Shown here in pieces: positions 108-23,653 of a DNA stretch of 23,755 bases (position 1 is the stretch's first letter; each line of letters begins with the position of its first letter). The stretch is from the NCBI GenBank assembly GCA_013298595.1, contig JAAFIG010000050.1:1-23755 (forward strand), written 5' to 3'. The notes under the pieces were generated by a model. The model was given only the letters and a program-made list of their open reading frames with translations, was not told the origin of the DNA and ran no database searches. Source of the stretch: Deinococcales bacterium. Its GTDB lineage: Bacteria > Deinococcota > Deinococci > Deinococcales > JAAFIG01. The translations under genes and the position numbers were made by a program.

Positions 108-430
108 ATGCCAATTTGGTATAACTGCTCGGGTGTAAGCTGTAACCAAAGCATTTTGGATTCAATCTGAGTGGTTGCAAAAGCCGCTAATAAATCCTTT
201 TTGCTAGATGGTTGTTTTGAACGATTCTGAATTTTCCAAACACCATAAACAGCACTTTGCAGCACTATCGCCTCGAGCCGAAGTAATTCGTTACTAATTT
301 CGCCATAAGTGCGTAAACACCGAGGGGGTTTAAATGAAAATAAATCAGCTTCTGGAAAAGCCTCGAGTATCCGTATTGTTAAACGCCGATGATTGAGAAA
401 ACGTTGCCAAAAAGTGTCCGATTCTGTCAT
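104..430 (-). CDS. DinB-like protein, apparently truncated at the C-terminus
   Basis: The 108-residue product starts MTESDTFWQRFLNHRRLTIRILEAFPEADLF and resembles the N-terminal two helices of DinB/YfiT-like metal-dependent four-helix proteins of Thermus/Deinococcus type, which are usually about 150-170 aa. It stops right after LQLTPEQLYQIGI, so the later helices and the C-terminal HxxxH metal ligands are absent. The frame runs upstream to 550, but I choose ATG 428-430. A -10-like TATAGT (minus strand, 437-442) lies 6 nt upstream, giving a leaderless start, and this start avoids overlapping divergent ugpA. Truncation coincides with the end of an unrelated plus-strand reading frame, which suggests an old insertion or rearrangement. 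It is probably a remnant without normal metal binding. The family call is from sequence feel, not a search. Confidence 0.55.
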   Translation of the reverse strand: MTESDTFWQRFLNHRRLTIRILEAFPEADLFSFKPPRCLRTYGEISNELLRLEAIVLQSAVYGVWKIQNRSKQPSSKKDLLAAFATTQIESKMLWLQLTPEQLYQIGI

Positions 431-436
431 GGCTGG

Positions 437-442
437 ACTATA
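437..442 (-). promoter_or_regulatory. -10 element of leaderless promoter for the DinB-like gene
   Basis: TATAGT on the minus strand ends 6 nt before the ATG at 430, so transcription would begin at or next to the A of the start codon. No Shine-Dalgarno is present. A TTGACT lies 14 nt upstream, a short spacer for a -35. Confidence 0.45.
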
Positions 443-468
443 ATTGTTTGCTGTAAAGTCAATGTCAG

Positions 469-508
469 CTTTGTGTGATTGACAAAGTCTTGATAATTCA
501 TGCGTAAT
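469..508 (+). promoter_or_regulatory. Promoter/operator region of ugpAEB
   Basis: TTGACA at 479-484 and CGTAAT at 503-508 (18-nt spacer) form a plausible sigma70-type promoter whose start would fall just upstream of ATG 520. The -35 is overlapped by a perfect inverted repeat CTTTGT-N7-ACAAAG (469-487). TTGACA is repeated 11 bp downstream as TTGATA (490-495), a 6-N5-6 arrangement like Pho boxes. Regulation by phosphate is an inference from this and from the genes controlled. Confidence 0.45.
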
Positions 509-519
509 CTGCAATCCGA

Positions 520-1437
520 ATGGAACGTTCGTTGCGAACAAACACAACAAATCGTCAGAATTTACGAATCCGTAAAGATTGGCTCGAGATGATGGTCTTA
601 CTCAGCCCGGGTTTGTTGTTATTGTTTGTGTTTGTGGTTTTACCAACCGTAGAGGCTTTTGCTTTATCGTTTCAACGTGAAGGTTTATTAGGACGCAACC
701 GAGTTTTTGTAGGTCTAGAAAATTACATAGAGATTTTTAAAAGTAAAGAAAATTTGCAAAGCGCTTGGCAGAGTTTGTACTTTGCTATTATCGTTGCTCC
801 TCTCGAGATTGTGTTGGCGTTTGCGGCAGCGCTTTTAATTGCCCGTCCTTTTCCTGGTGTAGCAGTGTATCGCACACTATTTTTTCTAACAACAGCCGTA
901 CCAACAGGTGTAGCAGCGATAGCGTGGAGTTGGTTCTTAAATCCGCAGACAGGTTGGGCAAATTGGTTGCTCGAGCGATTTGGTTTACCAGCAAAGACAT
1001 GGCTGCAAGACTCGAGTACGGCTTTGCCTACACTGGCGGTGATTACTGCTTGGGCAGGGGTTGGTTTTGCTTCGATTTTGCTGACGGCAGGTTTACAACA
1101 AATTCCCGAGGATCTTTACGAAGCTGCGCGTATAGATGGGGCAAATGGATGGCAGCAATTTTGTAGTATTACCATTCCATTGATTAGCCCAACGCTTTTT
1201 TTGGTCACGTTGCTGGTTTTTTTGCGTTCATTAACTGCTTTTGGACAAATTCATTTGCTGACCCAAGGTGGACCCGCTGACTCGAGTATGGTGTGGATTT
1301 ACCGTATTTATCAAGATGCTTTTTTTAATTTCAGGCAAACCTATGCCGCTGCTCAAAGCGTGTTGCTGTTTTTGTTTTTGTTGCTGTTGGCATTGCTGCA
1401 ATTTCGTTTAGTCGGACGCAAGGTGCATTATGAATAA
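520..1437 (+). CDS. ugpA: Glycerol-3-phosphate-type ABC transporter permease UgpA
   Basis: This 305-aa inner-membrane permease of the carbohydrate-uptake (CUT1) ABC family has six predicted membrane segments. The first covers about residues 26-48 (LLSPGLLLLFVFVVL). The cytoplasmic EAA loop is seen in EAARIDGANGWQQF followed by ITIPL, which docks the ATPase. ATG 520 is the first start after an in-frame TAA at 505-507. There is no good Shine-Dalgarno, and a promoter sits just upstream. It overlaps ugpE by 8 nt, which implies translational coupling. Assignment to Ugp rather than another sugar rests mainly on the partner binding protein. No ATPase (ugpC) gene is in the window, so a shared MalK/MsmK-type ATPase elsewhere is expected. 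Confidence 0.85.
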   Translation: MERSLRTNTTNRQNLRIRKDWLEMMVLLSPGLLLLFVFVVLPTVEAFALSFQREGLLGRNRVFVGLENYIEIFKSKENLQSAWQSLYFAIIVAPLEIVLAFAAALLIARPFPGVAVYRTLFFLTTAVPTGVAAIAWSWFLNPQTGWANWLLERFGLPAKTWLQDSSTALPTLAVITAWAGVGFASILLTAGLQQIPEDLYEAARIDGANGWQQFCSITIPLISPTLFLVTLLVFLRSLTAFGQIHLLTQGGPADSSMVWIYRIYQDAFFNFRQTYAAAQSVLLFLFLLLLALLQFRLVGRKVHYE

Positions 1438-2245
1438 AACGCTTGCTCGAGTATTTTTTTACGTTGGTATCAGCGTTTTTGCTGCCTTGTTGGTACTTCC
1501 ATTACTGACTTTATTTTCGGTCAGCTTTCGAGCCGATGCTGATGTTTATAACCCCAGTTTTTTTCCACCTCATCCGACAATTGAGCCATATCAAATCGCC
1601 TTAGAAAAATACCCATTACTGCGTTTTTTGCTTAATAGTTTTGTGATCTCGAGTCTGGTGACCGCTGGTGTGCTGCTGATCTCGAGTTGTACTGGGTATG
1701 CGCTGGCTCGAATCTCTTCTCGAGTGACTAACACTGTTTTTGCTTTGATTGTTGGTTTGTTACTTGTGCCTGGGGAAGTGACATTTTTACCGTTGTATAT
1801 CATGGTTAACAGATTGGGTTGGGTGGACTCATATTTTGCCCTGACCTTACCGTTTATTGCCAGCCCAATTGGTATTTTTTTGTTGCGTCAGTTTTTTAAA
1901 AGCCTGCCGCAAGAACTGTTTGACGCTGCTCGTTTGGATGGGGCTGGTCATTTCAGAATGCTTTGGCATATTGCCATACCGCTTGCGATGCCTGCCTTAG
2001 GTGCATTAGCAGCCTTAACCTTTTTGGGAACATGGAATATGTACCTCTGGCCCTTGGTGGTCACCAATGCCGAAAGCCTAAGAACAGCGCAAATTGCACT
2101 GCGTTTTATCAGTTCTGATGAAGCTGTGCGTTACAACATTGTCGGGGCGGCGGCTGTGATTATTTTATTACCCACCTTGATAGCCTTTTTAATTGCCCAA
2201 CGTGCTTTTGTACGAGGCATTGCCATGGGAAGTTTGAAAGGCTAG
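1430..2245 (+). CDS. ugpE: Glycerol-3-phosphate-type ABC transporter permease UgpE
   Basis: This 271-aa second CUT1 permease subunit has six membrane segments, the first at about residues 9-30, and the EAA-loop variant DAARLDGAGHFRML followed by IAIPLAMPAL. It pairs with UgpA to form the channel for the substrate delivered by UgpB. The ATG at 1430 lies inside the end of ugpA and is preceded by AAGGTG about 6 nt upstream. It ends in TAG, 59 nt before ugpB. The length is normal for the family. Confidence 0.85.
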   Translation: MNKTLARVFFYVGISVFAALLVLPLLTLFSVSFRADADVYNPSFFPPHPTIEPYQIALEKYPLLRFLLNSFVISSLVTAGVLLISSCTGYALARISSRVTNTVFALIVGLLLVPGEVTFLPLYIMVNRLGWVDSYFALTLPFIASPIGIFLLRQFFKSLPQELFDAARLDGAGHFRMLWHIAIPLAMPALGALAALTFLGTWNMYLWPLVVTNAESLRTAQIALRFISSDEAVRYNIVGAAAVIILLPTLIAFLIAQRAFVRGIAMGSLKG

Positions 2246-2304
2246 TTGCTAGATGTTGGTTTCTGGTGCAACACCCAGCGCGTGAAGATTGAAACGGAGG
2301 AAGT

Positions 2305-3621
2305 ATGAAAAAACGGTACTTAGCATTTGGTTTAGCGGCAGCCCTTGGTGCGGTTTCATTAACCACAGCGCAATCTGGACGTACCACAGTGACTTTTTGG
2401 TACGCGCTCGGCGGGAGTATCGGCGAGCAAATTGAAGGTTTGGTCAAAACCTATAACGCCAGTCAAGAGAAAATTACGATCAAAGCCGAATACACAGGCA
2501 ATTACGACGATACCTTGAACAAACTCCGGGCTGGTTTACAAGCGGGTAAAGGCTTCCCCAATGTGGTGCAAGTCTATGACGTGGGCACTCGCTTTATGGT
2601 GGATTCAGAGGCTGTTATCCCACTCGAGGATGTGGCAAAGAAAAATGGCTTTGATATCAACAAATTTGTCACTCAACCACGTAATTACTACACCGTAGAT
2701 GGCAAAATGTACAGCTTGCCTTTTAATTCGAGCAACCCATTGTTGTACTTTAATAGCAAAGCCTTAGCAGAAAGTAATGTTGAACAACGCCCACTGTATA
2801 CCTTGGTGCAACTCGAGGATACAATTAAACGCTTGACCATCAAAGATGCCAGCGGTAAAACCACGCGTTATGGTATCACTTGGAATGCTGATTCTTGGTT
2901 TGTGGAACAATTCGGTTATAACAGCGGTTATGCCTATTGCAACAACGAAAATGGGCGTAAAACTCGAGCCACCGAAACCACTTTTAATAACCCAGCAGCG
3001 ATTGCGTTTTTGGATATGATGGGGCGTTTAGCCAAGGATGGTTACGCTGCGCCTGTGGGACGTGATGGTACGGCTTCGTTGAATACTTTTGTTAATGGGC
3101 AAGCAGCAATGTATGTCTCGAGTACAGCCAATTTATTCGGTGCTACTCGAGCTGTTGGTGGTAAATTCCCAATTCGCACTTCGTTTTACCCGTTTCTCAA
3201 AGAGCGCAATGGTGTGGCTGTTGGTGGAGCGAGCTTGTGGATGCTCAAAGGCTTTCCGCAAATCGAACAAGATGGTGCTTGGGATTTCATCAAATGGATG
3301 GTTGAACCTAGTACCCAAGCTCGTTGGCATTTAGGAACAGGGTACTTTCCAGTGATTCAAGGTGTGACTGACCGTTTAGATGTTAAACAGGGTCAGGTCA
3401 AGAACAATAATTTTGTCACAGCCATTCGTCAGTTACAAACCAGTAAATCTAACAGTACCAGCGCAGGTTGTTTAATGGGGCAATTTACTGAAATTCGCAC
3501 CTATGTGGTTTCTGCATGGGAAGAAGTCTTAAAAGGTAAACCAGCCAAACAAGCCTTAGAAGAAGCCAAAGTCAAATCGGATGCTGCTTTGACCCGTTAT
3601 AACGCAACTGTTGCCAAGTAA
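2305..3621 (+). CDS. ugpB: Glycerol-3-phosphate-binding protein UgpB
   Basis: This 438-aa periplasmic solute-binding protein captures glycerol-3-phosphate or glycerophosphodiesters for UgpAE. The start has a strong GGAGG (2296-2300) 4 nt before ATG. A Sec signal (MKKRYLAFGLAAALGAVSLTTAQ) has no lipobox Cys. Segments matching E. coli UgpB as I remember it include TVTFWYALGG, GNYDDTLNKLRAG, VVQVYDVGTRFMV, PFNSSNPLLYFN, GGASLWMLKG and WHLGTGYFPV. These are specific to the UgpB branch rather than maltose or sugar binders. It is the last gene of ugpA-ugpE-ugpB and is followed by a hairpin terminator. Under the usual Pho-regulon logic it would be induced by phosphate starvation. Confidence 0.85.
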   Translation: MKKRYLAFGLAAALGAVSLTTAQSGRTTVTFWYALGGSIGEQIEGLVKTYNASQEKITIKAEYTGNYDDTLNKLRAGLQAGKGFPNVVQVYDVGTRFMVDSEAVIPLEDVAKKNGFDINKFVTQPRNYYTVDGKMYSLPFNSSNPLLYFNSKALAESNVEQRPLYTLVQLEDTIKRLTIKDASGKTTRYGITWNADSWFVEQFGYNSGYAYCNNENGRKTRATETTFNNPAAIAFLDMMGRLAKDGYAAPVGRDGTASLNTFVNGQAAMYVSSTANLFGATRAVGGKFPIRTSFYPFLKERNGVAVGGASLWMLKGFPQIEQDGAWDFIKWMVEPSTQARWHLGTGYFPVIQGVTDRLDVKQGQVKNNNFVTAIRQLQTSKSNSTSAGCLMGQFTEIRTYVVSAWEEVLKGKPAKQALEEAKVKSDAALTRYNATVAK

Positions 3622-3675
3622 GAATCTCTCGGTCACTCGAGTGGCGATACCCCATTCGAGCACTTTTCAAAGACA

Positions 3676-3702
3676 CCCCGCTCTGACTCGAGCGGGGTTT
3701 TA
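3676..3702 (+). terminator. Rho-independent terminator of ugpAEB
   Basis: A perfect 8-bp stem CCCCGCTC (3676-3683) pairs with GAGCGGGG (3690-3697) across a 6-nt loop and is followed by TTTTAT. A CTCGAG copy (3687-3692) straddles the loop and 3' arm. Confidence 0.85.
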
Positions 3703-3759
3703 TCATGCTTATTACTTGCTAACCAAAGGATAGGCATTAGCTTTGAGGGTACGAAATAA

Positions 3760-3784
3760 CCCCTCGAGGAGATGTCTCGAGGGG
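3760..3784 (-). terminator. Terminator of the phytase-like gene, built from two CTCGAG copies
   Basis: CCCCTCGAG (3760-3768) and CTCGAGGGG (3776-3784) form a perfect 9-bp stem with a 7-nt loop. Read on the minus strand, the hairpin is followed by TTATTT, as expected downstream of the minus-strand gene ending at 3816. Each arm contains one full copy of the genome's iterated palindrome. Confidence 0.75.
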
Positions 3785-3815
3785 CGAGGAGAGGAAGAAA
3801 ACCCGTGATGTTTAT

Positions 3816-5060
3816 TTAGCGTCCAACACCTGTGGCGATATTGAGAGGTTTCTCGAGTTTAAGCCAAATAAATTCGTTTGGATCTTTGATATCTGCGCCG
3901 CGTCCACCTTTGCCATCGTAGTTGTTGTCGTTAGCAACCAGAATAGTATTTTTATCCAGCACAATCACATTTTCTATAGTCACAAATGGAAAAGTGAAGA
4001 CACCATTTTGCGTACTTGGGGCGAGCTTATTGGCATCTGAGATATTCATTAAATCAGCAACCAATTCTTTTTGGGCAACACCGCTCGAGTCTTTTTTTGA
4101 AAGATCAATTTTGTAAACACGTTTGAATTTTGCCATTGCTCCCGAACCACCATCACGTTCGATTACAAGGTACTCGTTATCGTTAATCACTGCCATATCA
4201 CCAATGGCATTCGCTGTATCCTCAAGTTTGTAGTACGCAGCGATACCCACGTATTTTTTACTGGTAACATCAAATTCATGGATTCGCAATAAACCAGCTG
4301 TGTCGCCCAGAACTGTTCCCTCGAGTAAAGCGTAGAATTTAGTTTTGTTTGGGTTGTGGGCTAATCCTTCATATCCTCTGGAAGCATTGAGGTTTGCACT
4401 CGAGGCTTGTCCTGGGTTGGGTGATGCGGCAAGTACACTTGGGTTATTTGGCGAGCGCACAAAGTCTTTGCTTGGGTCTTTGCCTGCGCCATAATCTGGG
4501 GTTGGAATAGGTGCAGATAAAACCTTACCAGTGGTATCTACGTTAATTAAAAATGGTCCGAATTCATCACCAATCCAGATGGTGCCATCTTGAGCTACTA
4601 CAAAACTTTCAACATCAAAATCCGAACCTGTTAATAAACGTTCTGGTGTGTTTTCGTTGACAATAGCAAATGGGATTTTCTTATCAGGGTCGCGCAATTG
4701 AATAAAATTATTAACAGCTACCGTACCAGTGCCACCACTTGAGGTTTTTGGGCTGAGGGTGAGGTTGTATAAACGCAATAAGAAATCGGCGCTGTTGTAC
4801 TTGGCACCAAAGCCATTATCGGGTAGTACCCAGTAATTGCCATTGGCTGCAAATTGAATACCACTAAAGCCTTGTACGGGTTGGCTTGGAAAACGTGGTT
4901 CGGCAGCTTTGAGACCATTTCCGCCAAACTGTCCACTGGCAGGACCAGTCGCAAACGTATCAGCTGGTAGCAAACTAAAACCAATTAACTCGGTTTTGAT
5001 GCTTTGAGCGATAGCGGCGGTGGTGGCAAGAACTCCAAAGGCAATTAAGATTTTTTTCAT
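3816..5060 (-). CDS. Secreted esterase-like-activity-of-phytase family protein
   Basis: This 414-aa exported protein begins MKKILIAFGVLATTAAIAQ, a Sec signal with probable cleavage after AIA or AIAQ. Diagnostic segments include GFSGIQFAANGNYWVLPDNGFG, split by short gaps, then GSDFDVESFVV, IWIGDEFGPFLINVD, YEGLAHNPNKTKFYALLEG and IGDMAVINDNEYLVIERDGG. These fit the beta-propeller Phytase-like family (PF13449). Members are proposed to act on phosphate esters, but catalysis is poorly established. A TTG start at 5090 in the same frame is possible, but ATG 5060 opens directly into the signal peptide. It ends in its own hairpin terminator. The upstream region (5061-5134) carries 11-bp-spaced TTGAC-like repeats. 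Context with ugp and phoX supports a role in phosphate acquisition. Confidence 0.75.
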   Translation of the reverse strand: MKKILIAFGVLATTAAIAQSIKTELIGFSLLPADTFATGPASGQFGGNGLKAAEPRFPSQPVQGFSGIQFAANGNYWVLPDNGFGAKYNSADFLLRLYNLTLSPKTSSGGTGTVAVNNFIQLRDPDKKIPFAIVNENTPERLLTGSDFDVESFVVAQDGTIWIGDEFGPFLINVDTTGKVLSAPIPTPDYGAGKDPSKDFVRSPNNPSVLAASPNPGQASSANLNASRGYEGLAHNPNKTKFYALLEGTVLGDTAGLLRIHEFDVTSKKYVGIAAYYKLEDTANAIGDMAVINDNEYLVIERDGGSGAMAKFKRVYKIDLSKKDSSGVAQKELVADLMNISDANKLAPSTQNGVFTFPFVTIENVIVLDKNTILVANDNNYDGKGGRGADIKDPNEFIWLKLEKPLNIATGVGR

Positions 5061-5074
5061 ATCTTCAGTAGTTT

Positions 5075-5101
5075 GCTCAATAAGCGTCAAGGTTACGTCA
5101 T
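5075..5101 (-). promoter_or_regulatory. Candidate Pho-box-like tandem repeat before the phytase-like gene
   Basis: On the minus strand ATGACG (5096-5101), TTGACG (5085-5090) and TTGAGC (5075-5080) are spaced 11 and 10 bp apart, on one face of the helix, 15-41 nt before the ATG at 5060. This resembles response-regulator direct repeats. Function is inferred. Confidence 0.35.
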
Positions 5102-5134
5102 TGACAATTACTTGACATGAGATATTGGTAACAC

Positions 5135-5827
5135 TTATTGGTTGGGTTGCCTAGTGAAAAATCGCATTTGGTTTTCGTCTTTGTGCAGATGCACCCAAAA
5201 CACCAAACGATGATGCTCGAGGTAAGATTCGATTAAGACAGCTTCGCATTCTATGGGGAATAAACCTGCTTGGCTGTTAGGTGGTGGCTGTTGAACCCAG
5301 ATGACTCTGCCGCCGTGGTTTAAAGCCAACTCAAAGGCTGTGGGGCTTGGTGTATCAAGTTCTTGAGCTTCGAGCTGTTGAACCAATGTAAACCCAGGGT
5401 GTTCTAACGCTGCTCGTTCGGTGGCGTACAATTTTTCTGCCTTGTAGTGTTGTTCGCGCAACCGACGTAAAAACAGCGATCCATGAGTCGCAATCCATTG
5501 GTTTTTCTCGAGTTCGCGTTGTTCGGGGCTGAATGTTTGCCGATGACTGGCATAAGCCTCGAGCAGATTTTCCCAGTCTTTGATGCTATGCGGGTAGCGT
5601 TCTGCAAAAAAAGGATACCGCTGCTGATTATTTTCGACTTGACTGAGGTCTACCATTTCGATTTGGTCTATGGAATCACACAAATTCAGTAAACGAATTC
5701 TGGTTTTAGGACTGACGTTTTTCCACTTGAGTTCAATGGTTTTGCTACTGGGCAGCAAAACATGATGCTCGAGTAAATGGTTGCGTCGAGCGTGTTCGCT
5801 GACAGCTATTTTGACCAAGATTTTCAT
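5135..5827 (-). CDS. Unknown protein, last gene of the compact four-gene operon
   Basis: This 230-aa protein has no family I recognise. A beta-strand-rich start (MKILVKIAV) leads to a basic segment, then a long, very hydrophilic helical region (about residues 75-155, rich in E, K, R and Q, e.g. REQHYKAEKLYATERAALEH) that could form a coiled coil. It ends in a beta-rich C-terminus (GGRVIWVQQPPP ... LVFWVHLHKDENQMRFF). There is no signal peptide or membrane segment, so it is probably cytoplasmic. The start has GAGG about 6 nt upstream. The preceding small proline-rich gene ends only 1 nt before this ATG, so translation is almost certainly coupled. Confidence 0.8.
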   Translation of the reverse strand: MKILVKIAVSEHARRNHLLEHHVLLPSSKTIELKWKNVSPKTRIRLLNLCDSIDQIEMVDLSQVENNQQRYPFFAERYPHSIKDWENLLEAYASHRQTFSPEQRELEKNQWIATHGSLFLRRLREQHYKAEKLYATERAALEHPGFTLVQQLEAQELDTPSPTAFELALNHGGRVIWVQQPPPNSQAGLFPIECEAVLIESYLEHHRLVFWVHLHKDENQMRFFTRQPNQ

Positions 5828-5828
5828 G

Positions 5829-5978
5829 TCAGCCTCGGTAAGTTTTTAGTTTGGTGGTTGTGGCGGTTTTTTTTGGTGGTTCTGGGTATGGTAGGACTTC
5901 ATCAGGTTCAACAGGTTTTTCTCGAGGTGGCATCGGTGGAATGCGTGGTGGTTGCGGCAAAGGCATTGGTTTAATCAT
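5829..5978 (-). CDS. Small proline-rich protein (49 aa) in the unknown operon
   Basis: An ATG at 5976-5978 overlaps the 3' end of the zinc-ribbon gene by 8 nt and reads 49 codons to TGA at 5829-5831, one nucleotide before the next ATG. Fifteen of 49 residues are proline (segments such as MPLPQPPRIPPMPP and PYPEPP), with a K/T-rich tail ending KLKTYRG. The exact packing between two genes on the same strand is strong positional support. The Shine-Dalgarno is weak (ATAGG about 13 nt upstream), consistent with coupling. There is no signal peptide. It may be an extended linker or binding peptide for SH3-like partners; the function is unknown. Confidence 0.6.
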   Translation of the reverse strand: MIKPMPLPQPPRIPPMPPREKPVEPDEVLPYPEPPKKTATTTKLKTYRG

Positions 5979-6552
5979 AAAAACCAATGCCTATCAGCAG
6001 GGCTAAAGTGTCTTTGACAGTACCGCCAACAATCAGTAATGGTTCGCGTTCTTTAGCGTCCATATGCGGGTGAATCACAGCGCCGTACAGAATCACCGAA
6101 TCGAGTTTACGTAAATTAGAAATTCCAGGGTGTTCGATTAAACCACTGATATCGACATCGCCGATACCTTGAATAATTGTGTGCATAACACCTTTTTGCT
6201 CGAGATTTGTGGCAAATCTATACCCTAGTGTCATGCCTAGTTTTGCCTCGAGGTACTTGCTTGCATCTTTTTTGCCACGAGTCTGGTAAATCATCAGGTA
6301 TTGTCGTTCGCAATCTCGACAAATAACGGTGTCTTCAAATTGCCGACGAGGTGCATTGATGGTGTTGCAGTAATCACAATGACCAAGCCTGAGATTGGGC
6401 ATAAATTCTTCATCCAGTTGAGTGTTTAGACGCTGCCAAAGTTTACGTTCCTGTTTATCGAAATCTTCTACGCGCACAACTAATTTGCGTAAAGGATTTT
6501 TCAGTGTTCGCCCCCACAGTTCTGGCTTATCCAATGTTTCGGCAATAATCAT
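5971..6552 (-). CDS. Unknown zinc-ribbon protein in the compact operon
   Basis: This 193-aa protein has a four-cysteine zinc ribbon: CDYC at residues 59-62 and CRDC at 78-81. A helical region (about 25-55) precedes it, and the C-terminal half is hydrophobic and glycine-rich (GVMHTIIQGIGDVDISGLIEHPG ... LLIVGGTVKDTLALLIGIGFYD, shown in parts). A TTG further upstream (6579) is in frame, but ATG 6552 has AAAGG 5 nt ahead. It also forms an ATGA overlap with the reading frame downstream of the first gene's TAG. The 3' end overlaps the proline-rich gene by 8 nt. I recognise no family; a metal-stabilised nucleic-acid or protein-binding module is a guess. Confidence 0.8.
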   Translation of the reverse strand: MIIAETLDKPELWGRTLKNPLRKLVVRVEDFDKQERKLWQRLNTQLDEEFMPNLRLGHCDYCNTINAPRRQFEDTVICRDCERQYLMIYQTRGKKDASKYLEAKLGMTLGYRFATNLEQKGVMHTIIQGIGDVDISGLIEHPGISNLRKLDSVILYGAVIHPHMDAKEREPLLIVGGTVKDTLALLIGIGFYD

Positions 6553-6701
6553 AATGACCTTTCTAATTCGGCGGTGCAAATTGTGTATTTCAGTAAGGAT
6601 CTCGGGTGCGGGAACTCCTTACCAATTTGTTGAATGCGTTGCTTGATAACACTGGCACGAATGGGGGATTGCTGCTGAGTTTTTAGCGTTGCTCGATAAA
6701 C
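6549..6701 (-). other. Open in-frame 3' extension after a TAG, lacking any start codon
   Basis: Directly after the TAG (6702-6704) of the preceding gene, the same frame stays open for 50 codons to TGA at 6549-6551, which overlaps the next ATG as ATGA. The frame has no ATG, GTG or TTG codon. It encodes a protein-like helical stretch (YRATLKTQQQSP, ASVIKQRIQQIGKEF, SLLKYTICTAELERSL). Most simply, the first gene was once, or still is, 170 codons long with a nonsense codon at 120. Alternatives are TAG readthrough or a sequence error. Chance openness over 50 codons is possible. Confidence 0.5.
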
Positions 6702-7061
6702 CTAGAGTAATTTGCTGGGTGTGTTGCCACTGTATTCTGCGAGTAACTTATAGGTGTAGGCATTATGCCAACGAATACAAGTCAGAAATCCATCACTGAT
6801 ATCGGGTGAAATTGTTTGATCTGGTTGGCTGTGTATAGAAAATGTAGATGCCACGAAATCACCATCGGGTAACTGAAAAATCTGAACAAGAATGTCGGTA
6901 ATAAAAGCGAGGGTAAGCACAATTGGTGCGCCACAATCTGGTCGTTCCTCGAGCATAGATTGGCGGATAGTGTGTTCAAAGGCATGTTGTGTGATGTGGC
7001 TTTGTAAAGTACGAAATAATGGAACGCTACTGGGTATGAGTTCTGGGGGAGCGAAAATCAT
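6702..7061 (-). CDS. Unknown protein, first gene of the compact operon, possibly cut short by TAG
   Basis: A 119-aa product starts at ATG 7061, preceded by AAAGGA with a 4-nt spacer. A TTG at 7076 is in frame but lacks this signal. It starts MIFAPPELIPSSVPLFRTLQ, continues through a predicted strand-rich middle (IVLTLAFITDILVQIFQLPDG) and ends EYSGNTPSKLL at TAG. The same frame continues for 50 more codons into an ATGA overlap with the zinc-ribbon gene, so the functional protein may be about 170 aa. No family is recognised and there is no signal peptide. Upstream lie TTGACA elements (7117-7122 and 7083-7088, minus strand). Confidence 0.7.
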   Translation of the reverse strand: MIFAPPELIPSSVPLFRTLQSHITQHAFEHTIRQSMLEERPDCGAPIVLTLAFITDILVQIFQLPDGDFVASTFSIHSQPDQTISPDISDGFLTCIRWHNAYTYKLLAEYSGNTPSKLL

Positions 7062-7095
7062 TGTTCCTTTTAGCAAAAGATTGTCAAGGCTGTGT

Positions 7096-7138
7096 AACTT
7101 ACCGTGTTAAATACGATGTCAAATAAATGAAGTAAGTT
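7096..7138 (-). promoter_or_regulatory. Candidate promoter and inverted repeat before the unknown operon
   Basis: A perfect TTGACA (minus strand, 7117-7122) is followed 15 nt later by TAAGTT (7096-7101). The region is bracketed by an inverted repeat, AACTTAC (7096-7102) and GTAAGTT (7132-7138). A second TTGACA lies at 7083-7088. The spacer is shorter than ideal, so promoter assignment is tentative. Confidence 0.3.
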
Positions 7139-7201
7139 GGTTTCCTAATCGTATGAAAAAGGTTGAAAGCTCGAGAATATTGGCACAAAAGGATAAAGAT
7201 T

Positions 7202-7220
7202 TGTCAGGGCGTTCCTGACA
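7202..7220. promoter_or_regulatory. Inverted repeat TGTCAGG-N5-CCTGACA
   Basis: A perfect 7-bp inverted repeat lies about 50 nt before the start of the 7270 gene. The left half (TTTGTCAGG at 7200-7208) recurs twice upstream of phoX (9859-9867 and 9900-9908), so it may be an operator half-site. It could alternatively be a small leader hairpin. Confidence 0.35.
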
Positions 7221-7269
7221 CATTGAACCTATTTTTTTGCAAGAATTTCGATTCGCAATGGAGTCTGGT

Positions 7270-7743
7270 ATGAACTGGGAATCTCTGGACATCACAAAAA
7301 TTCGTTTGGATACTACGTATAGACAATCGCTGTACGCTCATCAATTCAAACTCTATCCAATTTTTGCTTTTCGTGCCCAGCGTTTTGTGGTGCTGACACC
7401 GATTCGTTTGTCGCATCAGCCACAAGCCCTCGAGGTGATTGAATTACTACCTCATGACCCAATGCTGATCGTGGATGCCCAATGCCCCGAACCAGTACTG
7501 ACCCCAGATGATGCAGAAAAACCATTTGCTTTGGTGAAACACATGGATTTTTTTGTTTATGCCCTCGAGAACCACCAAGATAAAGCTGTCTCGGCATTGC
7601 GAGAAGTTGGTTTCTTAGTGATTCGGGTTGTACCAGGTACGGACGCAGAATATGCTCAAGTTTTTGAATGGCTGAATCAACGCCCCGAGCCTTTAATCCA
7701 ACCGAATTTGTTTGGTGCTCCCGAGGACTCTGTGCTGGTGTAA
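7270..7743 (+). CDS. Unknown cytoplasmic protein
   Basis: This 157-aa product starts at ATG 7270 (MNWESLDITKIRLD), chosen because GGAG (7260-7263) lies 6 nt ahead. In-frame TTG 7237 and ATG 7258 are less well placed. It has a beta-rich core (FAFRAQRFVVLTPIRL, PMLIVDAQCPEP) and a helix followed by a strand (DKAVSALREVGFLVIRVVPG). It ends in a proline-rich tail (EPLIQPNLFGAPED). There is no signal peptide or membrane segment, and no family is recognised. It is monocistronic and ends at a strong bidirectional terminator facing phoX. The upstream inverted repeat suggests regulated expression. Confidence 0.7.
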   Translation: MNWESLDITKIRLDTTYRQSLYAHQFKLYPIFAFRAQRFVVLTPIRLSHQPQALEVIELLPHDPMLIVDAQCPEPVLTPDDAEKPFALVKHMDFFVYALENHQDKAVSALREVGFLVIRVVPGTDAEYAQVFEWLNQRPEPLIQPNLFGAPEDSVLV

Positions 7744-7806
7744 ATTTTTGACCACGATTGCCTGAGTAGGCTCGAGGATTTTTTGCTTTGAGTTTGCGTC
7801 ATAAAA

Positions 7807-7836
7807 AAGATCAAAACCCAAACGGGTTTTGATCTT
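7807..7836. terminator. Bidirectional terminator between the 7270 gene and phoX
   Basis: A perfect 13-bp stem AAGATCAAAACCC (7807-7819) pairs with GGGTTTTGATCTT (7824-7836) across loop AAAC, with A/T-rich flanks, between convergent genes. Confidence 0.85.
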
Positions 7837-13026: not shown

Positions 13027-13329
13027 TCTGAGGTCTACACAGGGTTCTTATCGGAGGTCTTTTTATTGTGCCCTAAGAGCGTGTCAATTTGAAGTCAAAT
13101 ATTTTACAGTCATTTGCAATAGTATTTAAAATACTGTTCTGGATGAACTATTATAATTTTTTTAAAACCTTCATTATTTTGAATCCTTAAAATTCACACT
13201 ACTTTCGATTCGAGGTATAAATGAAAGTTATTCGAGTAAAATCTTAGTTTTGTCAAACCGAATTTCTATGAGTAGGAACTCGAGATGGCAGCAATTGCTC
13301 ACCTCGAGGATTTGCTGTACTTTTAAACC
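13027..13329. other. 303-nt AT-rich intergenic region with regulatory-looking repeats
   Basis: I see no convincing gene here. It holds minus-strand TTGACA (13082-13087) and TTGACT (13093-13098) exactly 11 bp apart, upstream of the OppA promoter. It also has a perfect palindrome AGTATTT-A-AAATACT (13121-13135), a consensus TATAAT (13152-13157) with no clear -35, and two CTCGAG copies near its right end. The TATAAT could drive a long leader or small RNA, but nothing else supports one. Confidence 0.5.
13318..13323 (+). promoter_or_regulatory. -10 element of leaderless promoter for the DinB gene
   Basis: TACTTT ends 6 nt before ATG 13330, with TTGCTC (13295-13300) 17 nt upstream as a weak -35. 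No Shine-Dalgarno is present. The geometry matches the promoter of the other DinB-like gene at 430. Confidence 0.5.
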
Positions 13330-13776
13330 ATGACTGAAACCTTAACTGCCCTTGCCACAGCAGCCAACCAATTCCAAGCCGAATTTAGTAGACTCGAGCA
13401 AATACAACACCTTGATACCCCTCGAGCTGAAGGAAAATGGTCTCCCAGATTTATTTTTCATCACATTGCCGATATTGAATCCTTACAAGCAGTGCGTTTA
13501 CTTGCCATGCTTTGCCAAGATAACGCCATCATTATGCCCGCTCAACAAGAACTGTATGCCAGCAACACCCACTACACCACTCGAGACCCAAGTCAAAGCA
13601 TTGCTGCATTTGTTGCTTTACGCCAACGCAATGTACAACTCCTCTCGAGCCTCAGCTCAAACCAACTCGAGCGAAAAGGCACCCACCCCATCCGAGGCGA
13701 ATTTAGTATCGCAGCGTGGGCAGCGTTTATGGTCAAACACGATGCAAATCATCTCGAGCAGTTAAGGGCGAGTTAA
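13330..13776 (+). CDS. DinB superfamily protein
   Basis: This 148-aa four-helix-bundle protein is of the DinB/YfiT-like metal-dependent type, often thiol transferases or stress proteins. Typical marks are GKWSPRFIFHHIADIE, with His44/45 after the GKWS motif, and HDANHLEQL at the C-terminus with His137 and His141. These make up the usual three-histidine metal site. It is full length. The gene is densely packed with CTCGAG (six copies in 447 bp), mostly as Leu-Glu. It has a leaderless start and is monocistronic, converging on the EamA gene with an 83-bp gap. Confidence 0.8.
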   Translation: MTETLTALATAANQFQAEFSRLEQIQHLDTPRAEGKWSPRFIFHHIADIESLQAVRLLAMLCQDNAIIMPAQQELYASNTHYTTRDPSQSIAAFVALRQRNVQLLSSLSSNQLERKGTHPIRGEFSIAAWAAFMVKHDANHLEQLRAS

Positions 13777-15678: not shown

Positions 15679-17871
15679 ATGCCTGTACTTGCGAAAATCG
15701 AATCTATTCCTGTTCAAGTTCTACGTCCTGTGCAATGGCGTTTACGCGCCCCTGCCCCTGTTGCACCCCTCGAGGTGTTATCTAAAACCCTTGGTTTATC
15801 ACCGCAATTGGCAGCTGTGCTGTACTCGAGGGGTGTGCATAGTGTGGAAGCACTCGAGCCACCTTTGGCATTAAGCCCAAATCCTGCCTTACTCGAGGCA
15901 GCGGCTATTATTGCCAAAGCGATTCGGGCAAAGAAACGCATTCGGGTACATGGCGATTACGATGCCGATGGTGTGACGGCTGCCAGTGTTTTGGTAACAG
16001 GAATTTGTGAGTTGGGTGGTAATGCCCATGCTTTTATTCCACACCGAATTACCGATGGTTACGGCATTAACCCAGACCGAGTGCCCGAGCATATCGAGGC
16101 GTGCGATTTATTTATTACTGTGGATTGCGGTGTTAGCAATCTCGAGGAAATCGAGACAATTGTGGCAGCGGGTATCGAAGCGATTGTCACCGATCATCAC
16201 GCACCCGGTAAAATCTTGCCCGGTTGTTTAATCGTGCATCCTGCTTTAGCCCCCAATTATCATCATGATTTACCTGCGTTAACGGGTAGCGGCGTGGCTT
16301 TTCATTTGCTTTGGGCATTGCGCCGAGAATTTGGTGAACCACCACCGCTCGAGTACGCCGACCTTGCGGCTATTGGTACGATTGCCGATTTGGCACCATT
16401 ACTAGGCGAGAATCGGGCATTGGTCAAAGCTGGTTTAGCCCAAATGCGGAACTCGCGCTGGACGGGTATTCGAGCCATGCTCGAGCAAAAAAGAATTACC
16501 GCACCAACCGCTCGAGATGTAGGTTTTATTATTGCACCACGTATTAACGCGGCTGGTCGGCTAGGCGAAGCTGATACGGCGCTCGAGTTATTAACCACCA
16601 ATAATGCCCAGCGTGCCCTCACTCTTGCTACGTATTTAGATGCGCGTAATCTCGAGCGTAAACGCATCCAAGATGATATGTACACCGAAGCCCTCGAGAT
16701 TGCTGACCCTGAAGCACCTGCGCTGGTTGTAACTAAAACAGGTTGGCATCCTGGGGTGATGGGCATTGTGGCGAGTAAGTTACTCGAGAAATTCTTTAAA
16801 CCGGTCTTTATCATTGCCGAAGGCAAAGGTAGTGTCCGCACCACCGAGGGTTTTAGTGCCGTCGAAGCTCTGCGTTTTGCTCACAACACTTTAAAACGCT
16901 ACGGCGGGCATTCACAAGCAGGTGGTTTTGCCATCTACGAAGAAAATATTGCTGCTTTTGGACAGAAAATTCTCGAGTTTGCCCATACCCAACCCGAACC
17001 TCGAGAACGAGTTGTTGCCGACGCGATTCTTGCACCCAATCAAGTTTCCAAAGATATGATCGAGCAATTACAAAGCCTCGAGCCGTTTGGACAAGGCAAC
17101 CAAGCCCCACTTTTTTGGTTGCGTGAACCACTCGAGAGTGCAGGTAGCTTAGGCAAAGAAGGCAAACATTTTCAGTACCGAGTACAAGGTATCAAAGGGA
17201 AGCAATGGGGTATTGGCGTGCCATTTAGCGGTGGCGACAATATAGATGCGGCTGTGGTACTCGAGGAAAACGAATTTAATGGACGCACCAGCCTAGAATT
17301 CACCACGCAAAAAATGCGTTACCAAAGCCAATTGCAAATTCTCGAAACCGACTTAGATGATGGCTTGCACTATGCTCGAGTCGAAGCAAAAACCGAATTT
17401 GAACGCCTCAAAGAAACCTCGGTAGCCGTGTACGCCAGCGGTGCTGCCCTTGAGTTTATTCAAAATAAACACCCGCATTTACAAACCGATTGGCTCGAGA
17501 TTCCAGACCAAATCGTGCTTTTTTCAATGCCCGAACCAACTCTACTCGAGACGTGGCTAACAGCAAAAATCATGCTCCGATTCGCCCTGACTGAAAAAAC
17601 CTTATGCGAACTCGAGCAACGCGAATTCTTTACCCTCAATCACCTACGAACCCTCGAGATCGCCGCCAAAAAAGGCGAAACCATGCCTATTCCAACCAAG
17701 CGATTACTCGAGAGCATCAAAGGATTAACCAGCATCGAAGCGTACCAAACCAGCCCAGCCTTACGAAATGCCGAACTCGAACAATACCGTTTGCAAAGTT
17801 TTACCCGCATGTACCGCATGGCAGATGATGCGGGTTTCTCGAGTTCAGTACGGCGTTTATACGGCAAATAA
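15679..17871 (+). CDS. recJ: Single-stranded-DNA-specific exonuclease RecJ
   Basis: This 730-aa DHH-superfamily 5'-3' exonuclease acts in recombinational and mismatch repair. The DHH domain shows HGDYDADG (91-98), VDCG (148-151), TDHH (171-174) and DLAAIGTIAD (228-237). The DHHA1 domain shows YGGHSQAGGF (408-417). An OB-fold region follows, then a C-terminal extension (about 560-730) of the kind seen in Thermus/Deinococcus RecJ. ATG 15679 is 20 nt after the antitoxin-like gene, with no clear Shine-Dalgarno. The gene has 24 CTCGAG copies, about one per 91 bp. By eye, 19 of 23 Leu-Glu pairs are written CTC GAG. It ends 4 nt before a convergent gene. Confidence 0.93.
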   Translation: MPVLAKIESIPVQVLRPVQWRLRAPAPVAPLEVLSKTLGLSPQLAAVLYSRGVHSVEALEPPLALSPNPALLEAAAIIAKAIRAKKRIRVHGDYDADGVTAASVLVTGICELGGNAHAFIPHRITDGYGINPDRVPEHIEACDLFITVDCGVSNLEEIETIVAAGIEAIVTDHHAPGKILPGCLIVHPALAPNYHHDLPALTGSGVAFHLLWALRREFGEPPPLEYADLAAIGTIADLAPLLGENRALVKAGLAQMRNSRWTGIRAMLEQKRITAPTARDVGFIIAPRINAAGRLGEADTALELLTTNNAQRALTLATYLDARNLERKRIQDDMYTEALEIADPEAPALVVTKTGWHPGVMGIVASKLLEKFFKPVFIIAEGKGSVRTTEGFSAVEALRFAHNTLKRYGGHSQAGGFAIYEENIAAFGQKILEFAHTQPEPRERVVADAILAPNQVSKDMIEQLQSLEPFGQGNQAPLFWLREPLESAGSLGKEGKHFQYRVQGIKGKQWGIGVPFSGGDNIDAAVVLEENEFNGRTSLEFTTQKMRYQSQLQILETDLDDGLHYARVEAKTEFERLKETSVAVYASGAALEFIQNKHPHLQTDWLEIPDQIVLFSMPEPTLLETWLTAKIMLRFALTEKTLCELEQREFFTLNHLRTLEIAAKKGETMPIPTKRLLESIKGLTSIEAYQTSPALRNAELEQYRLQSFTRMYRMADDAGFSSSVRRLYGK

Positions 17872-17875
17872 TAAA

Positions 17876-18388: not shown

Positions 18389-18404
18389 ATTTGACCTTTT
18401 TTGC

Positions 18405-19871: not shown

Positions 19872-20842
19872 TGGGTTAGTTTAACGGTTTTTTCGTAACG
19901 AATTCTCGAGCGGTAACGTTTGAAACCCATGCTGATGTTCATTTGTAGCATGGCAGTGTTGACATGATCGTTGAAGGTACGAATTTCGAGTCCGCCTTGC
20001 TCGAGGGCATACCGCACACCTTGGAGTTTAAGTTGTTTAGCGACTCCCATGCCTCGGAAGGCTTTTTGTACCCCTGTCATACCAATCATAAAGTAATCGG
20101 GTTGACGTTCCAAGCTGGTAAAACCAATCCACTGGTTGTTTTTAGTGGCAATCCAAATGCTGTCAGGATTTACGTCGGTATTACCGAGAAATTTGGCGTG
20201 CCAGAGTTCAAATGGCTCGAGGGTGCTGGGTTGTCCAAATGGCACATCGAGGGTGAGTTCGCTATCCAAATCAAAGAGTTTTTTGATACGGGTTTCTTCT
20301 GGAAAACTCGAGAAAACCTCGATGCGAATACCAGCCGCTGCTAAGTTCGCCTCGAGTTGGGCGTAGTGCTCGAGATCAATTGTTTTTGGGTCAAGCCGCG
20401 ATTCGATGCGTTCCCACGCAGCAGTAAACCCATGTTTTTGCACAAAGTACACAGCGTTGGCTTCGTCATCGTTAATCATGGTTTGTAAATCTGTCGCATC
20501 GCCACGGGCTTCGATGGCGTTCTCGAGGGTTTGCCATAAGGTATTGCCAATACCACGTTGTTGATATTGCTTATGCACACAAACCTCGAGCCAGTATTTA
20601 CCAGCAGCATGCGAGCGAGTGTTATGTCCGATTTCGGCGACTGCGACAATTTTTTTCTGATTGTCCTCGAGAATTTCGGCAACAAATTGGGCAAAGTACA
20701 AATTAGGATCGCGGTGCAAGTGTTCAAGTGCCAGATTTCCTGGGGTGCTGTGCCATTCTGAAATGCTGTTATAAATTCCGCACAGACTAAGATAATCGTT
20801 TGGGTACGTGGCTGGGCGAATCTCGAGCATTAAATCGGGCAT
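19868..20842 (-). CDS. Tandem GNAT-fold N-acetyltransferase
   Basis: A protein of about 324 aa contains two GNAT domains. The first has acetyl-CoA motif A in VHKQYQQRGIGNTLWQTLENAI, given in part; the second has VQKAFRGMGVAKQLKLQGVRYA, also with the RxxGxG/A-type loop. Both domains keep the loop, so either or both could bind acetyl-CoA. Similar two-domain GNATs include mycothiol synthase-like and antibiotic or protein acetyltransferases; the substrate is not readable here. ATG 20842 (MPDLMLEIRPA) is chosen over the first ATG at 20902 because the GNAT fold begins at LEIRPA. ATG 20830 is also possible. It is the first gene of a three-gene operon with the kinase. Confidence 0.8.
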   Translation of the reverse strand: MPDLMLEIRPATYPNDYLSLCGIYNSISEWHSTPGNLALEHLHRDPNLYFAQFVAEILEDNQKKIVAVAEIGHNTRSHAAGKYWLEVCVHKQYQQRGIGNTLWQTLENAIEARGDATDLQTMINDDEANAVYFVQKHGFTAAWERIESRLDPKTIDLEHYAQLEANLAAAGIRIEVFSSFPEETRIKKLFDLDSELTLDVPFGQPSTLEPFELWHAKFLGNTDVNPDSIWIATKNNQWIGFTSLERQPDYFMIGMTGVQKAFRGMGVAKQLKLQGVRYALEQGGLEIRTFNDHVNTAMLQMNISMGFKRYRSRIRYEKTVKLTQ

Positions 20843-20886
20843 GTGAAAATCATTGCGTATAACCCAGACTTTGTACAATACGCCTT

Positions 20887-20954
20887 TTGACGCATACAGC
20901 ATTGGTGCGGTAAGCTCGAGGCAGAATTCACAGGCAACGCTTGTCCACTGGACA
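20887..20954 (+). promoter_or_regulatory. Candidate promoter and operator of the malZ-like gene
   Basis: TTGACG (20887-20892) and TAAGCT (20911-20916) are spaced 18 nt. A perfect inverted repeat TGTCCA-C-TGGACA lies downstream at 20942-20954, a position suited to a repressor. A clear AAGGAG sits 5 nt before ATG 21001. Confidence 0.4.
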
Positions 20955-21000
20955 CGACCTTTTTCCCTTGGTCGGTCTGGTGTTTTTTTAAGGAGTTTTT

Positions 21001-22845
21001 ATGGATTGGACAAATTACTTACATCACGATCACAGCCCGTTTTATGTGTCAGAAAGCGAAGCAGCAGTCGGAGATAAAATTCGTGTTCGCATCCGAGTGC
21101 CTCGCAATGCACCACTCAAAAAGATTGAACTGGCAGTTTTACGGATTGGTGAAATGACTCGAGTGCCAATGCAACCCGCTAAACTCGAGGATAAAAACTG
21201 GTTATTTTTTGAAACTGAAATCGAATTGATTGCACGTCGAACCCATTACTTTTTTTGGGTGCATGGTGAAACAGGCAGTGTCAAATTCTCGGCTCGAGGG
21301 GTGCAACGCACTAACCCTGCTTTCCGTGATTGGTTTGTTTTCTTAGCCGAGCAGCACCGCCCGAATTGGTTAGATGATCGGGTTTTTTACCAGATTTTTC
21401 CAGATCGTTTTTACAACGGCGACCCCAGCAACGATGTTCAAGCTGGCGAGTACAACTATATGGGTAAACCTGTACAAAAAATGGCTTGGACTGACCAACC
21501 TGAACAGCGTGTTGGACCACTGCAACACTGGGGCGGTGATCTCGAGGGCATTCGTCAGAAATTACCGTACCTGACCGATTTAGGTATTAACGGTTTGTAC
21601 CTCAACCCAATTTTTACCAGCCCGAGTAATCATCGTTACGATACCGAAAACTTTCTTGAGATAGACCCGCATCTGGGCGGACAGAAAGCCTTTGATGCCT
21701 TGGTTCAAGATGCCAAAAAACTCGATATACGCATTATTTTAGATGGTGTTTTTAACCACACAGGAGATCGCGCCCCTGAATTCAAAAAAGCCTTAGAAAA
21801 CAAAGTTGAACGACAAATGTACACCTTCCGAGCTGATGGTACGTACGAGGCATTTTTTGGTGTTAAAACCCTGCCTAAACTCGATTACGATTCGCACCTT
21901 GCCTTCGAGCATTTTCTCGAGGGAGCACACGCCCCAGTGCGTCATTGGTTACGAGCTGGCGCTGATGGTTGGCGTTTAGATGTTGCCCATATGATGGGCA
22001 AAGACGGCACAGACCGAGGCAATCTCGAGATTCATCGCCGCTTAAAAGCCGCTGCCAGACTCGAGAACCCCGAAGCTTGGATTTTTGGTGAGCGATTCTG
22101 GGATGCCGAACCATACTTGCAAGGCGCATCCGACCCGCACGACCACGCTGGCGGTGGCGAAGATGGCGTGATGAATTACCAAGGTTTTGCCTTACCCGTA
22201 GCCGATTGGTTGGCAGGCGTTGATATTTTTGGAAACAGCGTGCAGCTAGGTACCGACGAATTGATTGCCACCCTCGAGGAAAGTTACCGAGTGATACCCA
22301 ACCCAATGCGCTTCTCGCATTACAATCTACTCGGTTCACACGATGTCCCACGTGCGCTCGAGCGTATGGATGGCAACTTTGATAAACTCAAAACTGCGTT
22401 TGCCATGCTGCTGGCTTACCCCGGCGTTCCAGGCATTTATTACGGTGACGAAATCGGTTTGCGTGGCGGCAACGACCCCTACTGCCGAGCACCATTTCCA
22501 TGGGACGAAAAACAATGGAACTTACCACTGCGTGGTTTTCTGCAAACCCTGATCAAAGCCCGCAAACAAAGTAAAGCCTTGCAATCAGGAGCCCTCAAAT
22601 TCCTCGAGACACGCTTCGATGCCCTGACTTTTGCCCGCACCTACACCCATGCTGACGGGCGAGTCGAAAGTGCTTTAATTGGTGTCAACCGAGGCATCGG
22701 ACAAACCATGAATTTTAATACCGCGCTGGTCGGTGTGTTTGAAGGCTCATGGCAAGATGCCATTACAGGCGAAGTATTCCACGCTCGAGATGGCATTCTC
22801 AAAGCCACAGTTTTCAAACCTCGAGTATTACTGCCAATACTGTAA
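21001..22845 (+). CDS. malZ: MalZ-like maltodextrin glucosidase (GH13)
   Basis: This 614-aa cytoplasmic GH13 hydrolase removes glucose from maltodextrins or cleaves related alpha-glucans. It has an N-terminal beta domain (about 1-115), then the (beta/alpha)8 barrel opening DRVFYQIFPDRF. Conserved region I is DGVFNH (248-253). The nucleophile is Asp327 in GWRLDVAHM, the acid/base is Glu364 in IFGERFWD, and Asp448 lies in LGSHD. The local wording (HWGGDLEGI, GLYLNPIF, YDTE, GVPGIYYGDE, CRAPFPW) closely tracks E. coli MalZ, and the length fits (about 605). There is no signal peptide. Neopullulanase or cyclomaltodextrinase activity is an alternative. A 14-bp-stem terminator follows. Confidence 0.85.
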   Translation: MDWTNYLHHDHSPFYVSESEAAVGDKIRVRIRVPRNAPLKKIELAVLRIGEMTRVPMQPAKLEDKNWLFFETEIELIARRTHYFFWVHGETGSVKFSARGVQRTNPAFRDWFVFLAEQHRPNWLDDRVFYQIFPDRFYNGDPSNDVQAGEYNYMGKPVQKMAWTDQPEQRVGPLQHWGGDLEGIRQKLPYLTDLGINGLYLNPIFTSPSNHRYDTENFLEIDPHLGGQKAFDALVQDAKKLDIRIILDGVFNHTGDRAPEFKKALENKVERQMYTFRADGTYEAFFGVKTLPKLDYDSHLAFEHFLEGAHAPVRHWLRAGADGWRLDVAHMMGKDGTDRGNLEIHRRLKAAARLENPEAWIFGERFWDAEPYLQGASDPHDHAGGGEDGVMNYQGFALPVADWLAGVDIFGNSVQLGTDELIATLEESYRVIPNPMRFSHYNLLGSHDVPRALERMDGNFDKLKTAFAMLLAYPGVPGIYYGDEIGLRGGNDPYCRAPFPWDEKQWNLPLRGFLQTLIKARKQSKALQSGALKFLETRFDALTFARTYTHADGRVESALIGVNRGIGQTMNFNTALVGVFEGSWQDAITGEVFHARDGILKATVFKPRVLLPIL

Positions 22846-22937
22846 AACACCATCACTCACAGGATGAATGTAAGGTTCACCCCGACAACTTTATGGGATT
22901 TATTGGCACGGTGTTGGCTCGAGTCAAATCAAAAAAC

Positions 22938-22970
22938 AAATTTGGCGAACCAAAACGGTTCGCCAAATTT
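22938..22970. terminator. Bidirectional terminator after malZ
   Basis: A perfect 14-bp stem AAATTTGGCGAACC (22938-22951) pairs with GGTTCGCCAAATTT (22957-22970) with loop AAAAC, between convergent genes. CTCGAG copies flank it at 22918 and 22976. Confidence 0.88.
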
Positions 22971-22986
22971 CTTGGCTCGAGACGAA

Positions 22987-23415
22987 CTATTGAACGTTGA
23001 CCGTTAAACCAATACTGGTGGTCTGACCTGTTTTGGTATTCTCGAGAATAATTGTGACTGGGTACGTGCCATAAGCGGTTTTGCTTTCAATATCAAAAGT
23101 CAAACTCAGTTCTGGGTTGCTGTTGCTGTCTGCGCCAAGACTGCATTTATCCATGCTGATACCCAGTGCATCCGAAGCAATTATTTGTTTGACTTTAATT
23201 GTATCCTCGAGATTTTCAAAACCATATTGCAAGCGAATCAATTGCGAATTATCCAGCAAACTTGATGTATTGATTTTAATAGTGCTACTGGTACTCGAGA
23301 AAATATCGACTACGGCGGTATTACCAGTCCAATCTGCTTGACCTGCGGCAAGACTGGCAGTGCTGATACTGAGAGCGGCGATCAATCCGAAGGCAATTAA
23401 CTTTACATTTTTCAT
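22987..23415 (-). CDS. Small secreted protein of unknown function
   Basis: This 142-aa exported protein starts at ATG 23415 (MKNVKLIAFGLIAALSISTASLAAG, a Sec signal, cleavage likely after SLA or LAA), with AAGGAG about 9 nt upstream. The frame extends to 23571 without supporting signals. The mature part is all-beta and Ser/Thr/Asn-rich, with one cysteine (DKCSLGAD). It ends in repeated strands (TAYGTYPVTIILENTKTGQTTSIGLTVNV, in part) typical of an Ig-like or bacterial surface fold. No specific family is recognised. It is probably periplasmic or cell-surface. Confidence 0.7.
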   Translation of the reverse strand: MKNVKLIAFGLIAALSISTASLAAGQADWTGNTAVVDIFSSTSSTIKINTSSLLDNSQLIRLQYGFENLEDTIKVKQIIASDALGISMDKCSLGADSNSNPELSLTFDIESKTAYGTYPVTIILENTKTGQTTSIGLTVNVQ

Positions 23416-23446
23416 ATTGGTTCTCCTTGTGTATCTTTTATGCGTT

Positions 23447-23463
23447 TCGCAAATTTTTTGCGA
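23447..23463. promoter_or_regulatory. Inverted repeat TCGCAAA-TTT-TTTGCGA
   Basis: This perfect 7-bp inverted repeat lies 32 nt upstream of the secreted-protein start, within its expected promoter region. It may be an operator; no regulator is evident. Confidence 0.35.
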
Positions 23464-23653
23464 TGAACAAAGTATGCGAGTCGGGCATGAATCAATGCGG
23501 TGGGTCTCGAGGAGAAGTGATGAAGTTTGAACTAAAACCAACTCGAGCAAATTTTGCTGTCTGAGAAGCATAAAATAGAGGAGAGGTGATTGTGCAATTC
23601 ACACGGTCTGCATGAAATTTGAACGAGACAACCGTAGCAACTGTAATGAATTG

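Follow-up and report, generated by a model that had tools for sequence, protein, structure and literature searches.

The DNA considered here, a contig of 23,755 bases from a Deinococcales bacterium (its full length is called the window below), is crowded with the palindrome CTCGAG. This raises the question of whether the crowding is local or belongs to the lineage, and of what process maintains it. An initial annotation had estimated about 147 copies, spread over all reading frames, both gene orientations and the gaps between genes. An exact pattern scan finds 147, the first at 272 and the last ending at 23547, which fall at all codon offsets and in genes of both strands, with 18 outside genes. 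One hundred dinucleotide-preserving shuffles of the window gave a mean of 2.32 copies and a maximum of 13. The excess is 31.9-fold relative to base composition, in agreement with the "about 30-fold" first proposed, but ~62-fold relative to a first-order Markov (dinucleotide) model, for which the earlier figure is an underestimate. Apart from words that overlap it, CTCGAG is the only strongly enriched 6-mer in the window. Three features illustrate its placement:

272..23547, no strand: dispersed CTCGAG palindromes (n = 147, mean spacing ~160 bases), found by pattern scan in genes on both strands and in gaps.

15679..17871, + strand: RecJ-like gene with 24 sites by per-gene count, more densely filled than any other long gene in the window; its identity comes from sequence reading and homologues.

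13277..13330, no strand: intergenic example, in which the gap separating a divergent pair of genes has CTCGAG at 13279 and 13303, from scan positions and gene limits.

An excess confined to the window, or a genome-wide count near Markov expectation, would have refuted the annotation. Instead, the genome, a 94% complete metagenome-assembled genome (MAG) of an uncultured member of the Deinococcales (68 contigs, 4.58 Mb), contains by direct count 27,159 copies in 4,582,226 bases. This amounts to 5.9 per kb, or about one per 170 bases, and the letters of CTCGAG make up 3.6% of all bases. As a control, the reversed word GAGCTC was counted 15 times in the whole genome. In a 1.59-Mb sample (L001-L020, L204-L243 and L264-L283), with the expectation computed after masking of CTCGAG, the ratio of observed to expected copies (O/E) is 96. 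The excess is genome-wide, at roughly 60-95 times expectation.

Comparison with related genomes, which the annotation had also called for, reveals that the excess is common to relatives. Each of the four family genomes (G000-G003) carries 5.9-6.5 CTCGAG per kb, and this density is similar regardless of GC content (45, 49, 59 and 53%, respectively, in the sampled sequence). In the sister family, density is 6.2 and 7.7 per kb in genus g11, 3.6 in g8 and 0.3 in g4. The named genome closest to this one is a Deinococcales MAG (JAAFJQ01), and further close matches are Trueperaceae, Meiothermus and Thermus. Among 111 genomes of the phylum, CTCGAG is several-fold or more above GAGCTC in most Meiothermus-like genomes (g13, g28 and g29) and in f3 g23, and about equal to GAGCTC in the Thermus-like g7; the figures for f2 and Meiothermus are based on counts over whole genomes and on small loci. 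Because the family and g11 are saturated, the Meiothermus-like genomes moderate and the Thermus-like genomes and g4 nearly devoid of the excess, the trait looks old and graded across the phylum. The literature searched on the Deinococcus-Thermus group or on this word contained no report of a CTCGAG excess in the group. Orthologues of genes that are neighbors in the window lie mostly on separate contigs in G001, G002 and G003, which suggests low conservation of gene order, with the qualification that G001 is fragmented.

By its behavior, the CTCGAG repeat is a highly iterated palindrome (HIP), as the annotation had surmised from its likeness to HIP1 (GCGATCGC) of cyanobacteria. It has both the excess and the dispersal that characterize the class, being a short palindrome tens-fold in excess throughout the genome that occurs inside and outside coding DNA and that members of a clade have in common. 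HIP1 and the alternative cyanobacterial HIPs likewise are short palindromes tens of times over expectation in genes and gaps, are shared by clades, and are lost or weakened in some members (PMC4390886). However, word, phylum, density and near-miss pattern all differ from those of HIP1. The core word CGATCG has an O/E of only 0.21 in the present genome. HIP1 reaches 300-2,700 copies per Mb in most cyanobacteria (PMC4390886), whereas CTCGAG reaches about 5,900-7,700 per Mb here, although the comparison sets a hexamer against an octamer and is therefore not strict. Deviations from HIP1 concentrate at its outer positions, whereas near-misses of CTCGAG are even over positions 1-3. Cyanobacterial HIPs generally go with a matching methyltransferase; here no methyltransferase of five families was found in all high-density genomes, and a strong proteome effect is seen. 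CTCGAG is the densest HIP that we found, in a new lineage and with a new word. HIP1 has been unexplained for decades (PMC4390886).

The placement of sites indicates that the bias acts on DNA and not on codons. Density is 5.75 per kb in coding and 5.87 per kb in noncoding DNA of the genome, with G002 as an exception (noncoding 10.5, coding 5.4). It is flat around start codons, so that no association with promoters or gene starts is seen. No helical phasing and no preferred distance beyond the codon period were detected in the spacing of sites, nor is there an extended motif around the word, whose flanks are near background. Eleven tRNA genes (840 nt) contain no site, a number too small to judge. 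Equal density in coding and noncoding DNA, the involvement of every frame, and an altered proteome bear out the DNA-level process that the annotation had proposed.

The effect on proteins was observed directly. Within the window, genic sites are most often read as Leu-Glu (84 of 129), and 82 of 102 Leu-Glu pairs are written CTCGAG. In the four family genomes, 66-77% of Leu-Glu pairs are written CTC GAG, where codon usage would predict 5-14%, and occupancy of the remaining two reading frames able to encode the word is 29-64%. No dipeptide of the family proteomes is more over-represented than Leu-Glu (O/E 2.25-2.35), and Glu-Leu is at ~1. Across relatives, the Leu-Glu O/E declines along with CTCGAG density, from 2.1-2.25 in g11 through 1.73 in g8, 1.68 in Meiothermus and 1.36 in Trueperaceae to 1.15 in Thermus, 1.06 in g4 and 1.01 in loci of other phyla, several of these groups being small samples. 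Because the excess persists in orthologue-validated genes (2.0-2.3), spurious open reading frames (ORFs) are not its cause. CTCGAG has therefore reshaped the proteome, and many amino-acid changes have been fixed for the sake of the word or as its by-product.

Turnover of sites was assessed against G001 in 76 gene pairs, which span 80 kb at an amino-acid identity of 73.5% and in which fourfold-degenerate third positions are 40% identical. In this comparison, 58% of CTCGAG sites are at the same place, rising to 86% where Leu-Glu is kept. Where the genome has a Leu-Glu not written CTCGAG, the counterpart in G001 is CTCGAG in 59% of cases; the pattern therefore reflects the nearly complete filling of possible places more than the retention of individual sites. 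Density also depends on gene GC content, from 0.66 per kb below 36% GC up to 6.7 in the GC-richest genes, and sites are scarcest in a polysaccharide cluster and a defense-like island. The latter (L009:8041-12184), as read from its sequence, encodes an MBL-fold-like ORF, a ThiF/E1-JAB-like ORF and a membrane protein, and has the look of a defense island. Few sites in low-GC stretches fit slow filling of DNA that was presumably acquired, but low GC in itself also reduces the chance that CTCGAG occurs.

Near-miss words carry information on the force behind the excess. In 103 kb of noncoding DNA, CTCGAG is 72-fold over expectation, which would correspond to a per-site bias of about e^4. In the same DNA, words one transition away are enriched 2.46-, 2.44- and 2.15-fold at positions 1, 2 and 3, and those one transversion away average ~0.9. 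Values for Leu-Glu codon pairs are 6.0 for CTTGAG, 3.0 for CTCGAA and 0.4 for CTGGAG. A simulated mutation-selection equilibrium acting on the exact word only leaves transitions and transversions both near 1, which disfavors simple equilibrium selection on exact CTCGAG. Simulated directed conversion of one-off words gives 1.5-1.6 for transitions and 0.7-0.85 for transversions; at the tested rates its O/E is 19-38 compared with the observed 72, and its transition value falls short of the observed 2.3, so the model fits qualitatively only. Simulated relaxation yields 2.7-3.0 and 1.4, respectively, with falling density. The pattern could thus stem from a conversion-like drive, from partial function of transition variants, or from a recent relaxation or weakening of pressure. 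In the noncoding near-miss counts, neither C of the motif shows the C>T decay excess expected of 5-methylcytosine (m5C). The near-equal transition enrichment at C and T positions speaks against this modification, and no sign of its hypermutability is seen.

The annotation had also suggested a methyltransferase target, a proposal that so far is not supported. DNA methyltransferases of PF00145, PF01555, PF02384, PF07669 and PF02086 vary among genomes, and none was found that is common to all high-CTCGAG genomes. Sequence does not reveal specificity, and completeness of the family MAGs is 91-94%, so that a CTCGAG enzyme may lie outside the five families, be unrecognized, or be missing from the assemblies. 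In these families, the genome itself has few enzymes, with one m5C enzyme (L131), two of PF01555 (L156 and L166), one gamma N6-methyladenine (m6A) enzyme (L182), one long enzyme (L193) and a weak D12 match (L340). The m5C enzyme has counterparts in G001 (74%), G012 (63%) and G062 (61% to the G001 copy), and no close one was found in G002 or G003. The gamma enzyme (L182:534-2958; PF07669/PF02384) has a 307-aa unannotated ORF immediately upstream, with which it possibly forms a restriction-modification pair. It was rejected as a shared factor, having only weak similarity and no orthologue seen in G001-G003. Another gamma methyltransferase (L188, L190, L313, L314/L183 and L315) is conserved at 34-59% identity between Meiothermus-like and Trueperaceae-like genomes, in which a similar ORF lies beside it. 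It too has no orthologue and only weak similarity among family proteins, and therefore does not explain the family genomes.

Searches with the MT-A70 family (PF05063) gave no match, and the controls were silent too; the XhoI family (PF04555) had no match in 12 genomes, with control genomes silent as well. The word is the one recognized by XhoI/PaeR7I restriction-modification, but restriction normally leads to avoidance of a word, and here it is in excess. The related deduction that the cell cannot contain an unprotected XhoI-type nuclease is fair on general grounds. A combination of m5C and very-short-patch repair is ruled out: the family genomes lack a Vsr nuclease, and CTTGAG, from the T:G product CTTGAG/CTCAAG, is enriched and not depleted. 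The saturated genomes strongly avoid many other palindromes. In the present genome, GGCC is at 1% of expectation, GAGCTC, TTCGAA, CCGCGG, GACGTC and GGCGCC are each below 4%, and in the sampled sequence about 20 other palindromic hexamers, together with GGCC, have O/E under 0.15. Genus g11 is similar in this respect, g8, Trueperaceae and Meiothermus are mostly without avoidance, and G002 does not avoid GGCC. Strong palindrome avoidance is usually read as heavy restriction pressure. A simple scan detected no CRISPR arrays in the sampled sequence.

The explanation that we tentatively prefer, at less than even odds, is that CTCGAG is a highly iterated palindrome of this Deinococcales lineage, recognized by a core factor and kept near saturation by a conversion-like molecular drive. 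The word would be a strand-symmetric recognition sequence for a putative core chromosomal factor that binds, repairs or modifies DNA, and a bias of about e^4, acting continuously on each site, would hold it near saturation in every context able to spell it. Lost sites and near-miss words would be turned back into CTCGAG more often than the reverse, conversion rather than ordinary selection being the supposition; biased recombinational or mismatch repair is a candidate route. Such a bias would cover all resident DNA, with Leu-Glu and similar dipeptides arising where protein function tolerates them, and would fill newly acquired genes slowly. No CTCGAG-recognizing or -converting protein was found in this analysis. 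The bolder statement, that a methyltransferase-independent drive saturated the genome of a lineage with one hexanucleotide, overriding protein sequence (Leu-Glu more than 2-fold) and exceeding any HIP density that we found described, seems to us doubtful, if possible.

A coupling to methylation of the kind proposed by Elhai, in which a CTCGAG-specific methyltransferase marks the word and methyl-directed mismatch repair favors mutations that create it, is unlikely on balance. It draws on the general company of cyanobacterial HIPs with methyltransferases of matching specificity (PMC4390886), on CTCGAG orphan methyltransferases in Nocardia (PMC4752239) and a probable Micrococcus counterpart of m5C type (PMC6346199), and on the several methyltransferases that the present genome carries. 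However, the lack of an enzyme common to all high genomes and the missing m5C decay signature tell against it. In the orphan systems, moreover, sites of this same word cluster at the replication origin, whereas here they are spread evenly and density in the dnaA/oriC region is average, which rules out origin-linked methylation as in Nocardia. Ordinary selection on each site, as a binding site of a nucleoid-associated or architectural protein for which transition variants keep part of the affinity, is rather unlikely. It would suit the dispersal of sites, their equal density in coding and noncoding DNA and their similar strength in two families. CTCGAG-written Leu-Glu is also somewhat better conserved than other Leu-Glu in G001 (0.77 versus 0.67, a small sample), but this difference is not seen against G002. 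The lack of helical phasing or preferred spacing and the absence of promoter or origin preference also tell against this reading, and equal enrichment at all three transition positions is unusual for partial binding.

Biased uptake in natural transformation is known to act as a drive by which a word can fill genomes (PMC1939737), and Thermus relatives are highly competent (PMC3235269), so that CTCGAG might be a DNA-uptake sequence. We consider this very unlikely. Thermus uptake is reportedly broad in specificity (PMC3235269), and Thermus shows little CTCGAG excess. The uptake sequences of Pasteurellaceae and Neisseriaceae, although also short words spread through genomes by a drive-like process, are longer, non-palindromic (PMC1939737) and present about once per kb, in contrast to a palindromic 6-mer at 5.9 per kb. 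This density is far above one site per transformed fragment, at which uptake selection should saturate. A protein-level codon or dipeptide preference, or an artefact of assembly or contamination, is hardly credible: Leu-Glu is indeed the commonest reading of sites, but noncoding DNA is equally dense, Glu-Leu is not enriched, and three more family genomes show the excess.

Dense CTCGAG also occurs in viral sequence. Two IMG/VR contigs, neither with a close protein match to the family samples, carry 5.7 per kb (L368, 14.5 kb; O/E 33, all 44 of 44 Leu-Glu as CTCGAG, no GAGCTC) and 7.4 per kb (L372, 12.4 kb; O/E 21, 79% of Leu-Glu as CTCGAG, one GAGCTC). A further viral stretch (L398:37-795) has 24 copies within a single ORF that contains many repeated V-S-R units and is probably a tandem repeat.

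To our knowledge, neither a function nor a cause of HIP1 has found general agreement since it was described in 1995; a study by Xu et al. in 2018 reportedly addressed selection on it. With a second lineage and an independent, denser palindrome, the HIP question becomes testable by comparison, that is, by asking which gene tracks density. Such a test is feasible because relatives are graded, from Thermus and g4 with little or none through moderate Meiothermus to saturated genomes, and because there is no obvious shared methyltransferase. The proteome effect suggests that amino-acid changes can become fixed in large numbers through a bias at the DNA level, a point relevant to models of how proteins evolve and to phylogenetic work on such lineages.
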